Positions 3,401 to 28,485 of a stretch of 30,377 nt of DNA are shown here, one piece after another (the stretch's first letter is position 1; every line of letters begins with the position of its first letter). The position numbers were made by a program, and so were the translations under genes. Origin of the DNA: a virus; IMG/VR virus record IMGVR_UViG_3300033816_000075, positions 1 through 30,377 of that record. One strand, 5' to 3'. Below the pieces are notes generated by a model. That model was given only the letters and a program-made list of their open reading frames with translations, did no database searches and had not been told where the DNA came from.

Positions 3401-3959
3401 ACCGAACCCAAAAAACCCACGACTAATTAAAGACGAAAAATTTAAGAAATTAGTCAAATCAATTAAGGACTTTCCACAAATGTTAGAACTACGTCCAATA
3501 GTAGTGGATGAGAATAACATTATTTTGGGCGGAAATATGCGTTTTAAGGCACTTAAAGAAGCAGGACATACCGAAGTATCAATAGTTAGAGCAAACGACC
3601 TTACAAGCGAACAAAAGGACGAATTTATAGTAAAGGATAACGTTGGTTTTGGGGAATGGGATTGGGATATGTTAGCTAACGAATGGGACACTGAAAAGTT
3701 AGATGAGTGGGGTTTAGATTTACCTGTTGATTTAGAAAGTATAAAAGCGACAAAAGATATTTCAGATATTGGAGAAATTCAATTCAGCGAAGAATTACTT
3801 TTAGAACATAATTACATTGTTTTATATTTTGATAATGCTATGGATTGGGAAGTTGCTCAAGAAGTGTATGGATTAAAACAAGTAAAAAGTAAAACAAGCG
3901 CGGAAGGAACTCAAAAAATTGGTATTGGTAGAGTAATAAACGGAAAAAATTTTATATGA
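3348..3959 (+). CDS. ParB/Srx-fold protein
   Basis: Residues 11-100 form a ParB N-terminal (ParB/sulfiredoxin) domain: KLSEIKPNPKNPR, then LRPIVVDENNIILGGNMRFKA with the GGxxR motif at 61-65, then a helical VKDNVGFGEWDWDML stretch. Phage versions of this domain often sit next to DNA-modification genes. After residue 130 a separate region of unknown fold follows (YIVLYFDNAMDWEVAQEVYG). Codon and CpG use change visibly around 3,650-3,740, so the 3' part looks like a later addition. A second start, ATG 3366 (MKIEKVKL), is possible. It shares a 4-base overlap with the glycosyltransferase-like gene. Confidence 0.75.
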   Translation: MKKTYQMKIEKVKLSEIKPNPKNPRLIKDEKFKKLVKSIKDFPQMLELRPIVVDENNIILGGNMRFKALKEAGHTEVSIVRANDLTSEQKDEFIVKDNVGFGEWDWDMLANEWDTEKLDEWGLDLPVDLESIKATKDISDIGEIQFSEELLLEHNYIVLYFDNAMDWEVAQEVYGLKQVKSKTSAEGTQKIGIGRVINGKNFI

Positions 3960-4714
3960 ATGTTATAATACCAAGTTACAAAAGAAGCCACGATTTAAAA
4001 GGAAAAGATTATTTCTTTATGGCTAAATATTGCGTTCCTGAAAGTCAAGAAAAAGAATATATTGAAGCAGTTGGAAAAGATAGAGTTATTACTTTGCCTG
4101 ATAGCGAAGACGGAGATATAGTAAAAAAACGGAATTGGATTTTAAATAACGTAGAATTTCCTTTAATAATGATTGATGATGATGTTTCAAGTATTAATTA
4201 TTATGAAAATAGAAAAGGAGAAAATAACGGAGAGCATAAAAATAAAGAATTAGACAAACACGAATTAATTAATTTTTTTAAACATAATTTTAAGTTATGC
4301 GAAGATTTTAATTGTAAAATGTGGGGATTATCTCAAAACGAAGATAATAGAATATATAAAGAATTTTTACCTTTTAATTTAACAAATGTTGTTTTGGGTC
4401 CTTTCCAAGCTCATTTAAAACACGAATTAAAATTTGATAGTAGGGTAGGAACAAAAGACGATTACGATATGGCTTTACAACAATTACATAAATATAAAAA
4501 AGTGTTGAGGTTAAACAAGTTTCATTATTTATGTGAACACGGAGATAATAAAGGTGGCATTGTAAGTTATAGAAGTAAAGAAAAAGAAATAGAATATTGT
4601 AAACAGATAATGTTAAAGTGGGGTAAAAAAATAATTCAGTATAGAATACCACCAAGAAAAATGACTGATTTATTAAATGCAAAAAAAGTAAATGTTCCAA
4701 TTAAAGGAGTTTAA
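3956..4714 (+). CDS. TET-associated-type glycosyltransferase (TAGT-like)
   Basis: The 252-aa protein opens with NVIIPSYKRSHDL, then CVPESQEKEYIEAV, DGDIVKKRNWILNN and LIMIDDDVSS with the DDD metal-binding motif at residues 74-76. This is a GT-A-fold nucleotide-sugar transferase layout. The IPSYKR, VPESQ-EY, KRNWILN, DDD order matches what I know of the TET/JBP-associated glycosyltransferase family, found in phage DNA base-hypermodification operons. No TET/JBP or methylase is visible in this window. It is coupled to the ParB gene and lies just before terminase. DNA is thus a plausible acceptor, though a protein target is possible. The gene is AT-rich and CpG-poor compared with its neighbours, suggesting recent gain. 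Confidence 0.6.
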   Translation: MNVIIPSYKRSHDLKGKDYFFMAKYCVPESQEKEYIEAVGKDRVITLPDSEDGDIVKKRNWILNNVEFPLIMIDDDVSSINYYENRKGENNGEHKNKELDKHELINFFKHNFKLCEDFNCKMWGLSQNEDNRIYKEFLPFNLTNVVLGPFQAHLKHELKFDSRVGTKDDYDMALQQLHKYKKVLRLNKFHYLCEHGDNKGGIVSYRSKEKEIEYCKQIMLKWGKKIIQYRIPPRKMTDLLNAKKVNVPIKGV

Positions 4715-24097: not shown

Positions 24098-24121
24098 TTT
24101 AGCAACATATCGTTAAGGGGG

Positions 24122-24144
24122 GGGGTAGAAATACCCCTTTTTTT
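24122..24144 (+). terminator. Intrinsic terminator ending the late operon
   Basis: GGGGTA (24122-24127) pairs with TACCCC (24132-24137) around a GAAA tetraloop, followed by seven T (24138-24144). It is preceded by a run of nine G starting at 24117. It separates the late operon from the early promoter about 80 bases further on. Confidence 0.88.
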
Positions 24145-24219
24145 ATGTCTTAAAAACGCTTGAAAATCAACGAGTTAGAAATTATTTTGTTGAAAATCGA
24201 AAAAAAGTTTTGAAAAAGT

Positions 24220-24250
24220 TTGGTCAATTGAAACTTAGTATTTATATTTG
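24220..24250 (+). promoter_or_regulatory. Bacteroidetes-type promoter of the early operon
   Basis: TTG (24220-24222) and TATATTTG (24243-24250) are 20 bases apart, matching the TTG/TAnnTTTG consensus of Bacteroidetes primary sigma factor promoters. The first gene begins 35 bases downstream at 24286. The surrounding sequence, TTAGTATT before and GTATA after the -7 box, recurs at the promoter near 28,478. Confidence 0.78.
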
Positions 24251-24285: not shown

Positions 24286-24444
24286 ATGGAAACAATTATT
24301 AAAGCCTACGAGCAAGAACTACGCGAAATAATGCAAGAAAATATCGACGCATTCGGACATTTAGACACGGATACCCAACGAGCAATCGAACGTTGGTTAG
24401 TTATCGAAGAATTATTAACCCGCTTAAATTTGAACAATGATTAA
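24286..24444 (+). CDS. First early-operon protein, 52 aa
   Basis: ATG 24286 to TAA 24442-24444 encodes an acidic helical protein, METIIKAYEQELREIMQENI, then FGHLDTDTQRAIERWLVIEE and LLTRLNLNND. It is directly behind a strong early promoter and overlaps the next small gene by 8 bases. No family is recognised. Being first transcribed, it could act in host takeover, which is inference only. It shares the ACGCTATG start context with the ERF gene at 28510. Confidence 0.7.
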   Translation: METIIKAYEQELREIMQENIDAFGHLDTDTQRAIERWLVIEELLTRLNLNND

Positions 24445-25092: not shown

Positions 25093-25271
25093 CTGCAAAA
25101 GACAAAGCCATTTATTTAATCGTCAAGTTTAACAAGGTTTCAATTTGCGTAAATTTTACGAACGAAATGCTAAACAATTTAGAACATATTAAAAACCTAA
25201 CCCCAAGTAAAACAATTTATGATTTAATCGAGTATTGGGAAAACGTTAAAAAAGAAATAGAAAATTTATGA
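25089..25271 (+). CDS. Small early protein, 60 aa
   Basis: The protein starts MTAKDKAIYLIVKFNKVSIC and ends YDLIEYWENVKKEIENL. It is a short strand/helix protein with no enzymatic motif. ATGA overlaps join it to the genes on both sides (25089-25092 and 25268-25271), so it is part of a tightly coupled early string leading to the DnaA-like protein. Function unknown. Confidence 0.65.
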   Translation: MTAKDKAIYLIVKFNKVSICVNFTNEMLNNLEHIKNLTPSKTIYDLIEYWENVKKEIENL

Positions 25272-25648
25272 TAGAACAAGCCGAACATTTAATAATAAAA
25301 TACAACCTACGTAGACGTTGCAGAAATCAATATTTAGTGCATCAAAGAGCGTTTTTAATGAGCCGACTAAGCAAACACGGATTAAGCGTTACAAGAATCG
25401 CAAGGATGTTTAAAATGAACCACGCTACCGTATTACACAACGTTCGAAACGCAAAATATTACGAAGAAATTGAAGACAAATATTATTTAGCAGACGTTGC
25501 CGAAATACGCGAGGAATTAGAAAGCAACCCCGTAGTTAGAAACGTTACGGATTTAGTTTCCGAAATTCTTGAATGCACCACGGTAAGACGTTTAGAAAAA
25601 ATACAACGAAGAATTTTACGAAATGAGTACAAGTTAACGGAAGAATAG
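25268..25648 (+). CDS. DnaA domain IV-like HTH protein
   Basis: Residues about 25-66 match the DNA-binding domain IV of DnaA: an N-terminal basic helix (HQRAFLMSRLSKHG), then LSVTRIARMFKMNHATVLHN with NHATVLH in place of DnaA's DHxTVLHA recognition signature. No AAA+ domain is present, so it can bind DNA but not act as an ATPase. The C-terminal half is helical and charged. It may mark the phage origin or recruit the helicase encoded at 26360. It is last before a leader with a terminator hairpin. Confidence 0.68.
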   Translation: MIEQAEHLIIKYNLRRRCRNQYLVHQRAFLMSRLSKHGLSVTRIARMFKMNHATVLHNVRNAKYYEEIEDKYYLADVAEIREELESNPVVRNVTDLVSEILECTTVRRLEKIQRRILRNEYKLTEE

Positions 25649-25649
25649 T

Positions 25650-25657
25650 TATATTTG
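25650..25657 (+). promoter_or_regulatory. Putative -7 box before the leader RNA
   Basis: TATATTTG fits TAnnTTTG exactly and starts one base after the DnaA-like gene's stop codon. No TTG stands at the expected upstream distance, so it is a weaker candidate than those at 24220 and 28456. If used, transcription would start near 25,664, just before the paired region at 25,668. Confidence 0.45.
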
Positions 25658-25667
25658 TACTCGGCTT

Positions 25668-25752
25668 CCTTCGACACTATAAAGCCAAAAGATGTTATTA
25701 ACCCTGTTAATGAAGTAGAGGTCGAAGGCTACGGATTTAATAGGGTTTTTTT
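25668..25752 (+). terminator. Leader terminator hairpin, possible pseudoknot
   Basis: An 11-bp stem (25700-25710 with 25737-25747, including one G-U pair) is followed by seven T (25746-25752), a standard terminator just 18 bases before the next ATG. The 26-nt loop holds GTCGAAGG (25721-25728), which is perfectly complementary to CCTTCGAC upstream (25668-25675). The two helices would form a pseudoknot or compete. GGCTT (25663-25667) can also pair with AAGCC (25682-25686). This looks like a regulated leader or a short stable RNA rather than a simple operon end. Confidence 0.65.
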
Positions 25753-25770
25753 ATTGATTAAATTTTTTTT

Positions 25771-26370
25771 ATGGAAAGGGATTCTATGATTATTTACCGC
25801 AGTTTCTTCGAAGCGATTAAGGAACTACCAAAGACAAACCAAGCGGAGGTTTGGAACGCCGTTTATGAGTTAGGGTTAAATGGAAAGTACGTTGAACTGA
25901 ACGGAATTAGTAAAACTATTTTTACTTTAATAGCACCACAAATCGAAGCTAATTACAAGAAATTTGTAAACGGGAGCAAACCTAAAACGAAACAAATCGA
26001 AAGCAAACCCGAAGCAAAAGAGAAGCAAACCCGAAGCAAAACCGAAGGCAATGTAAATGTAAATGTAAATGATAATGTAAATGTTATACCCTCTTGCGAG
26101 GAATTTATAGCTTATGCAGTTAGTAACGTTTTGGATATAAACACGGAGGAAGTTCGATTGAAGTACGAATCGTGGAAGGTAAATAATTGGTGTACGAATG
26201 TTAAAGGCAAAGAGAAACCAATTAAAAATTGGAAATCAACGCTTTTAAATACTTTACCTTACCTTGGTAGGATAAAACCCGAAGAATTATCTTTGGAACA
26301 ATTGCAGTACAACCACGTACAAAAGATGTTAAATTACAAAGACACTAAAGATTATTCAAATGCTGACTAA
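25771..26370 (+). CDS. Replisome organiser-like protein
   Basis: The N-terminal region, IIYRSFFEAIKELP with QAEVWNAVYELGLNGKY and TIFTLIAPQIEANYKKFVNG (residues 7-68), matches what I recall of DUF6291-type proteins from Bacteroidetes phages. A basic, repetitive linker follows (about 69-105, ending in Asn-Val repeats). The C-terminal part (about 110-199) contains VRLKYESWKVNNWCTN and KNWKSTLLNTLPYL, a DnaD-like helical end. This two-domain layout next to a helicase gene is typical of helicase-loading or origin-binding proteins. ATG 25786 (MIIYRSF) is a second possible start. It overlaps the helicase gene by 11 bases. Confidence 0.65.
   Translation: MERDSMIIYRSFFEAIKELPKTNQAEVWNAVYELGLNGKYVELNGISKTIFTLIAPQIEANYKKFVNGSKPKTKQIESKPEAKEKQTRSKTEGNVNVNVNDNVNVIPSCEEFIAYAVSNVLDINTEEVRLKYESWKVNNWCTNVKGKEKPIKNWKSTLLNTLPYLGRIKPEELSLEQLQYNHVQKMLNYKDTKDYSNAD
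26001..26041 (+). repeat. 22-bp period tandem repeat in linker
   Basis: A 19-bp sequence, AAGCAAACCCGAAGCAAAA, occurs at 26001-26019 and again at 26023-26041. The 22-bp offset is not a multiple of three, so the two copies are read in different frames. It lies in the linker of the replisome-organiser-like gene. Confidence 0.85.
26051..26086 (+). repeat. Hexamer microsatellite encoding Asn-Val repeats
   Basis: Six consecutive hexamers of the ATGTAA type (with ATGATA and ATGTTA variants) encode an Asn-Val run with one Asp. As a multiple of three, gain or loss of a unit would change linker length without breaking the frame. Confidence 0.85.
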
Positions 26371-27241
26371 ACAAGGGGACACGATACAATACTTACTTGA
26401 CTTAAAAGCGGGCAAAATAAAAGCAGGATTAGGCATTGACTGCGTTTTAGATAACTTTTTAAGGTTTAAACGCAAGCAAGTAAACATAATTTTGGGACAC
26501 GATAACGTAGGTAAAACGTATTGGATAAATTGGTATTTCCTTTGTCTTGCATTAAAACACGGACTTAAATTTTGCCTATGGTCGGGGGAAAATCAAAAGG
26601 GACAAGTTCTAAGGGATTTAATCCAACTTTACGCAGGCGAACCATTCAAGAACTTAACTAATAACCAAATACAAAGCTACCTTACCTACATTGAACAATT
26701 TTTTATCTTCGTCGATAATTCTAAACTTTACAAGCCGTTGGAACTTTTGGAGGTATTTAAGCAAAGCGAATGCGATGTAGCGTTAATAGACCCTTTTACG
26801 GGGTTAGACCGAGAAATGAGTTACGAAGGCAATTATACTTTTATGAATAAAGCAAGGGAGTTTGTCAATAAAACGGGAATAACGCTTTACATTAACACGC
26901 ATCCAAACACGGAAAGCGGGCGAAGCGGAAACCTTTACACGGAAGGCGAATGGAAAGGACATCTTAAACCCCCATTAAAAGACCATATCGAAGGGGGTAA
27001 GGCTTTTCTAAATCGATGCGACGATATGTTAGTAATTCACCGCCTAATAAAGCATGAACAAATGAAATATAAAACAATGATTAGTATTGAAAAAGTAAAG
27101 GACACGGAAACGGGAGGAAAAATAACGGGAATAGGCGAGCAACTATTATGCGATTGGAATAGTGGTTTAGGCTTTGAATTATACGGAGTTAATCCTTTGC
27201 GAGATATGCGAAACCCAAAGAAATCTAATTTACCTTTTTAA
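26360..27241 (+). CDS. DnaB/RecA-fold replicative ATPase
   Basis: The 293-aa protein has a RecA-type ATPase core. Walker A is GHDNVGKT at residues 46-53. SGEN with a likely catalytic Glu is at 75-78. Walker B is VALID at 140-144, and NTHPNT follows at 179-184. The N-terminal half of DnaB (primase-interaction domain) is absent, so it is shorter than a full DnaB (about 450 aa) and more like the compact helicases of small phages. The gene follows the replisome organiser and overlaps it, which fits loader and helicase working together. Unwinding activity is inferred from the fold. Confidence 0.78.
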   Translation: MLTKQGDTIQYLLDLKAGKIKAGLGIDCVLDNFLRFKRKQVNIILGHDNVGKTYWINWYFLCLALKHGLKFCLWSGENQKGQVLRDLIQLYAGEPFKNLTNNQIQSYLTYIEQFFIFVDNSKLYKPLELLEVFKQSECDVALIDPFTGLDREMSYEGNYTFMNKAREFVNKTGITLYINTHPNTESGRSGNLYTEGEWKGHLKPPLKDHIEGGKAFLNRCDDMLVIHRLIKHEQMKYKTMISIEKVKDTETGGKITGIGEQLLCDWNSGLGFELYGVNPLRDMRNPKKSNLPF

Positions 27242-28455: not shown

Positions 28456-28485
28456 TTGCTAATTCAAATATTAGTATTACATTTG
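28456..28485 (+). promoter_or_regulatory. Bacteroidetes-type promoter of the recombination operon
   Basis: TTG (28456-28458) and TACATTTG (28478-28485) are separated by 19 bases, a full match to the TTG/TAnnTTTG consensus. The ERF gene starts 24 bases downstream of the -7 box. The TTG also forms an in-frame alternative start for that gene, which would place the promoter inside the coding sequence and is therefore rejected. Confidence 0.82.

Follow-up and report, generated by a model that had tools for sequence, protein, structure and literature searches.

A kissing-loop RNA folded onto its own terminator ahead of phage replication genes, a candidate attenuating leader

Loop-loop kissing is the way in which RNA I and RNA II of ColE1 recognize each other, and the known kissing RNAs that control replication, which belong to plasmid systems, mostly act between two molecules. 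Short RNAs from phage replication leaders are represented by the CI immunity RNA of satellite phage P4, whose mechanism with seqA and seqC is described in PMC4825925. The same paper covers IsrK of the Salmonella prophage Gifsy-1, where one promoter gives rise to a short terminated RNA and to a read-through mRNA, the translation of which is controlled by pairing (PMC4825925). For plasmids, the rep leaders of IncI-alpha, IncB and IncL/M with the repZ pseudoknot appear as titles cited in PMC10724649.

The locus described here lies in a window of 30,377 nucleotides (positions 1 to 30,377 of IMG/VR record IMGVR_UViG_3300033816_000075, the whole stretch analysed), a tailed-phage record of ~30 kb with terminase, portal, tape-measure, lysis and recombination genes. 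Here the RNA is folded on its own terminator; in relatives, the pairing tag recurs at the start codon of the following gene. Rfam contains no family that matches the window or 13 homologue loci at the curated cut-off, with hits at chance level only, and this includes the antisense RNA family of the P4 CI/C4 type. A search of the open literature, with most subscription journals beyond its scope, returned no description of the RNA. On the basis of sequence comparison we regard it as a new, undescribed family, for which we infer the mechanism proposed below.

Architecture and covariation of the leader

The initial annotation had pointed out a -7 box, an 8-nt segment, an 11-bp stem with the complement of that segment in its loop, and a GGCTT/AAGCC pairing, and all of these are present in the window (Table 1). 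Missing from its list was hairpin P3, which is nested inside the terminator loop of P2. The L1xL3 kissing helix comprises 8 bp and joins the loop of P1 to the tip of the terminator hairpin. One of the 11 base pairs of P2 is G-U, and the stem runs into T7, so that a GC-containing stem is directly followed by a U-run, as in intrinsic terminators, and is conserved as RNA. Nearest-neighbour estimates are about -16 to -20 kcal/mol for the terminator hairpin and about -8 to -12 kcal/mol for the kissing duplex. Single-sequence folding of the window leader gave no signal (z -0.64); the thermodynamic fold of the window alone is unremarkable, and the significance of the RNA comes from comparison. A short ORF in the linker (ATGTTATTAACCC...) was dismissed as a coding element, as it is not conserved in relatives.

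Table 1. Coordinates of the leader and its flanking genes in the window
Feature	Position	Strand	Basis or remark
DnaA domain-IV-like helix-turn-helix gene	25268-25648	+	PF08299, E 9e-6, under gathering score
Predicted promoter, Bacteroidota -7 box TATATTTG (TAnnTTTG)	25650-25657	+	start site expected near 25660-25663
Hairpin P1, GGCTT 25663-25667 x AAGCC 25682-25686	25663-25686	+	99.6% of cells paired in alignment A3
P1 loop, 14 nt (kissing arm and conserved tail ACA..ATA)	within 25663-25686	+	
L1 kissing arm CCTTCGAC, 8 nt	25668-25675	+	partner 25721-25728; 97% of cells paired, 103 double-changed (count inflated by relatedness)
J1/2 linker	25687-25699	+	conserved TTATT immediately 5' of terminator stem, in main form and compact form alike
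P2 terminator stem, 5' strand AACCCTGTTAA	25700-25710	+	11 bp with 25737-25747; 98.9% of cells paired
P2 terminator stem, 3' strand	25737-25747	+	as for 5' strand
J2/3, TGAA, internal loop facing GGA	25711-25714	+	conserved in main form
Hairpin P3, GTAG 25715-25718 x CTAC 25729-25732	25715-25732	+	presents second kissing arm
L3 kissing arm GTCGAAGG, in terminator apical loop	25721-25728	+	covaries with L1
Terminator U-run T7	25746-25752	+	first two T also paired in P2; T-run in essentially all homologues
First gene of replication operon, 199 aa, DUF6291	25771-26370	+	Pfam PF19808, E 7e-12
Primase/helicase-type protein	26360-27241	+	phrog_239, E 1e-21

For the comparison, more than 200 IMG/VR loci were gathered using the replication protein, the helicase and the RNA pattern as queries. 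Among 100 loci a covariance model of three nested helices found 88 matches, and among a further 84 it found 61; 79 distinct main-form sequences were recovered (about 80 distinct homologues in IMG/VR). In an alignment of 16 sequences (A2), all 447 cells are paired (100%) with double changes in 20 of the 28 pairs, and slid structures reach 32-48%. Alignment A3 contains 50 distinct sequences and was aligned by a model without the kissing helix; here, 98.6% of 1393 cells are standard pairs, double changes affect 23/28 pairs (four of five in P1, 9 of 11 in P2, all four in P3), and slides, those of the kissing helix included, pair only 28-47% of the cells, none coming near the observed value. The number of double-changed cells, although inflated by the relatedness of the sequences, is 287 compared to 77 +/- 6 after shuffling (reached in 0/500 shuffles), and the kissing helix alone contributes 103 against 37 +/- 4 with 97.0% of its cells paired, its own slides reaching 28-45%. 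Covariation in homologous leaders, which the initial annotation had put forward as a check, is thus strong. Besides, a search for terminators that did not require the complement found 6-7 nt of loop complement upstream of every complete one; homologues with the terminator but no complement, which the initial annotation had named as a refutation, were thus not encountered.

A model-free scan of all column pairs by mutual information placed the 22 strongest covarying pairs inside one fold and revealed no alternative antiterminator helix that covaries. The complementarity of the two hairpin loops covaries as expected for an intramolecular kissing loop, and the mutually exclusive antiterminator helix of a two-state attenuator or riboswitch was not found. 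Hence, the reading as a leader of interlocking helices holds insofar as terminator and kissing helix are both selected as RNA, but not with respect to mutual exclusion: the GGCTT/AAGCC pairing, originally taken as a competitor, is P1, which presents the L1 arm, and all helices fit one fold. P2 is rich in G-U pairs (UG in 28, 15, 22 and 8 cells), and Watson-Crick pairs make up almost all of P1, P3 and the kissing helix; this tolerance of G-U in P2 argues for selection on RNA and not on DNA. Taken together, we consider the existence and the fold of the RNA near certain.

The kissing helix is also the fastest-changing helix. Between close pairs of sequences, which are not independent of each other, 0.16 of its base pairs have changed in comparison to 0.03 for P1, 0.04 for P2 and 0.10 for P3. 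These changes occur as coordinated blocks between near-identical relatives (L013/L040, L124/L131, L057/L058), and the kissing arms are the sole difference between L013 and L040. A natural chimera (L282:3379-3469) combines L1 CCTTCGAC with L3 GTCGGATG, leaving one mismatch and one G-U. That pairing is preserved while the letters turn over indicates, on comparative grounds, that the RNA is real.

The -7 box is equally well defined. Among 73 distinct upstream sequences, conservation at the fixed T, A, T, T, T and G of TAnnTTTG is 97-100%, variation falls mostly at nn, and the spacing between box and P1 is 4-6 nt. This motif is the consensus that PMC7366714 quotes for promoters of Bacteroidota. 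The window has just two other TATATTTG boxes on the + strand, at 2285-2292 ahead of a sigma-factor-like gene (2310-2843, phrog_1740) and at 24243-24250 ahead of a small gene at 24286. In addition, a sequence resembling a terminator (GGGGGGG...CCCC T8) is located at about 24118-24145.

Distribution, genomic context and a third copy of the tag

The RNA usually occurs once per record of ~30 kb, and the order promoter, P1, linker, P2/P3 terminator, U-run and ATG recurs in nearly every complete region; exceptions are the distantly related L026, where the RNA is missing, and L303, which lacks the -7 box. Several loci unmatched by the covariance model carry a compact form with fully paired loops of 6-7 nt. 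This form has an AGTA/GAA internal loop where the main form has TGAA/GGA (window 25711-25736), which we take to resemble a bulged-G (sarcin-ricin) internal loop. In other unmatched loci the contig end cuts the region, and in L078 the RNA lies outside the fetched flank, with the same contig carrying it in L169. Searches of bacterial genomes yielded no matches, neither to the helicase profile nor to the RNA pattern, the latter being an exact-match pattern that divergent copies could escape. The RNA is absent from cultured phages that share distantly homologous genes (Riemerella, Maribacter and a faecal contig). The carriers are a family of uncultivated phages, the hosts of which are very probably Bacteroidota. 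One record of 47 kb (G011) contains the replication locus in two differing versions that lie 28.5 kb from each other (L309/L310), each with its own RNA allele, which probably reflects two related phages joined in assembly.

In the window, the 3' end of the DnaA-domain gene overlaps the promoter region of the RNA, and the ATG of the 199-aa gene follows 18 nt past the end of the RNA model. In relatives, the upstream neighbour is usually likewise a small gene with similarity to domain IV of DnaA, and the first ATG of the operon is found about 20 nt or less after the RNA. Since this gap is too short for a second promoter in most relatives, the replication genes would have to be reached by read-through. 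The position of the RNA is constant while the next gene varies (DUF6291-like, MSGWIK type, HNH type and others), and it is retained in some phages whose helicase is of a different type. Genes of the HNH type (MEEIWK...) are situated between the RNA and the replication gene in L107, L159, L229, L261 and L278. Elsewhere in the window, 3956-4714 encodes a protein similar to the phage beta-glucosyl-HMC alpha-glucosyltransferase (phrog_842) and adjoins a ParB/methyltransferase-like gene, a neighbourhood that possibly deals with DNA modification.

Compact relatives and one main-form lineage contain a third element, R, a further copy of the L1 arm 1-10 nt ahead of the start codon. In these relatives R covaries with both loops, L1 and L3, and the L3 arm is complementary to the start-codon region as well; in L250, for example, L1 is GTTGCAG, L3 is CTGCAAC and the leader reads GTTGCAG-ATG. 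R matches its own allele in 14 of 57 leaders, representing 7 alleles, whereas shuffled labels yield 1.2 on average and never more than 6 (0/20000 reach the observed number). An R of the own allele directly precedes the replication gene's start codon in L232, L236, L238, L243, L244, L248, L250, L209, L212 and L109, and likewise in L254, L261, L275, L278, L280 and L159. L213, L221 and L222 keep R at the replication gene despite ~1.8 kb of genes after the RNA. In the window each arm sequence occurs once without a third copy, and the same absence applies to most main-form relatives. Own-arm 7-mers are not enriched elsewhere in the phages (0.76 against 0.79 per 10 kb).

Proposed mechanism and rival explanations

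Judged from its sequence and position, we see about an even chance that this structured RNA of ~90 nt, with its own promoter and intrinsic terminator, is a cis-attenuating leader of the replication operon. The RNA probably meters the timing or strength of phage DNA copying, and the earlier proposal of a control of replication-gene expression is plausible. Transcription would start at P1, which folds first, and its loop would capture the loop of P3 as this emerges during transcription. The L1xL3 kiss would then lock the AU-rich terminator hairpin together, so that the majority of transcripts stop there and yield a compact stable RNA, with only a metered share continuing into the replication genes. 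Read-through would rise whenever some factor or state opened the L1xL3 contact. In R-bearing relatives, a freed L3 arm could in addition cover the ribosome-binding region and thereby add translational control. Because the covariation supports one fold, "attenuator" refers here to a clamped terminator and not to the classical antiterminator/terminator pair; a single fold without a switch would also be compatible with a constant terminator or a stand-alone RNA, which counts against a regulatory role.

The main rival to cis attenuation is trans action, which we hold to be possible though rather doubtful. The terminated product would be a small RNA in the manner of the P4 CI immunity RNA or Gifsy-1 IsrK, whose L3 finds a matching site, L1 of another molecule or R, on nascent or read-through transcripts. 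Through this pairing it would repress or activate the replication genes. The third element suggests such a trans or translational action in some relatives, given the match of R to its own allele and its retention at distant replication genes in L213, L221 and L222, and the fast block-wise change of the kissing helix is as expected of a specificity tag. Nevertheless, R is missing in the window and most main-form relatives, own-arm sites show no enrichment elsewhere, and L1 of the same molecule should outcompete sites in trans. Antisense-like control, as suggested in the initial annotation, thus finds some support only where L3 also complements the start region, and the window has no third element. 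Going further, it is conceivable, if unlikely, that the RNA represents a new class of riboregulators in phages, with three interchangeable copies of the tag, in leader loop, terminator loop and start-codon region, and with the terminator loop deciding whether the terminator is locked or the ribosome site covered. If this were true, block diversification would make each phage answer only to its own RNA, resulting in an RNA-coded replication timing and possibly in superinfection specificity.

A ligand- or protein-sensing leader, in which the kissing fold is an aptamer or a site for a phage or host protein and is coupled to the terminator, for instance for autogenous control by a replication protein, appears quite unlikely. 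The unpaired ACA..ATA, TTATT and TGAA/GGA that are conserved around the kissing fold, as well as the presumed bulged-G likeness of the compact form, would fit a binding site, but these residues differ between main and compact form, no Rfam riboswitch or leader reaches the cut-off and a mutually exclusive covarying helix is absent. Nothing points to ligand binding, which had also been considered in the initial annotation. Very improbable is a stand-alone structural RNA unrelated to the following genes, serving for example host takeover, with the replication genes transcribed by leaky read-through: own promoter, terminator, compact fold and independence from the identity of the next gene agree with it, yet the RNA always heads the replication operon, and the start-codon copies in relatives link it to translation of the next gene. 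Least of all do we expect an element acting at the DNA level (an origin or a binding site in the form of a hairpin) or an ordinary terminator whose complementarity arose by chance, an extremely improbable reading. Such an element would suit the proximity of replication genes and DnaA-domain gene, but not the G-U tolerance of P2, the conservation of U-run and promoter or the covariation of the loop pairing; an origin is further disfavoured by the window itself, which shows a single TTATNCACA at 28484 and no DnaA-box cluster.

Comparison with known systems

A weak resemblance to an Rfam entry concerns RT-14 RNA (RF02921), which scored 29.5 bits (E 0.014) against the compact relative L243 and shares the AGUA..GAA internal loop within a long 3' hairpin. 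Its 5' half is unmatched, the score is below the cut-off of 48.1 bits and neither the window nor other relatives repeat the match at the RNA, so we dropped this identity.

The P4 CI RNA, with its mechanism as described in PMC4825925, and the C4 antisense RNAs of P1/P7 resemble ours in being short RNAs from the leader of replication genes, with premature termination before those genes, which here is predicted. One internal segment is complementary upstream and downstream, an arrangement that we find in R-bearing relatives and not in the window, where the downstream partner is missing. In contrast to the P4 CI RNA as described there, the upstream partner is part of the same folded RNA and engages in a loop-loop kiss with the terminator, and there is no Rfam match; the lack of relatives in bacterial genomes gives no sign of prophages. 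With IsrK, as presented in the same paper, our RNA shares a single promoter, predicted here to give both a terminated short RNA and an mRNA by read-through; fold, host and target of IsrK are different. The Inc rep leaders, to judge from the titles cited in PMC10724649, likewise involve a leader loop that pairs beside the start of a replication gene, which here holds only for R-bearing relatives; they differ from our RNA, which has a transcription terminator within the fold and, in the window, lacks the segment at the start site.

The fully paired loops of 6-7 nt in the compact relatives recall ColE1, except that the kissing here is intramolecular, within one transcript. What sets the RNA apart is a tertiary (kissing) contact that forms part of a terminator and covaries with unusual clarity. 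It sits where it would govern the expression of replication genes, in uncultivated phages of a widespread group. It offers a compact and directly testable case for asking how termination is tuned by loop-loop contacts, and possibly an orthogonal regulatory part.
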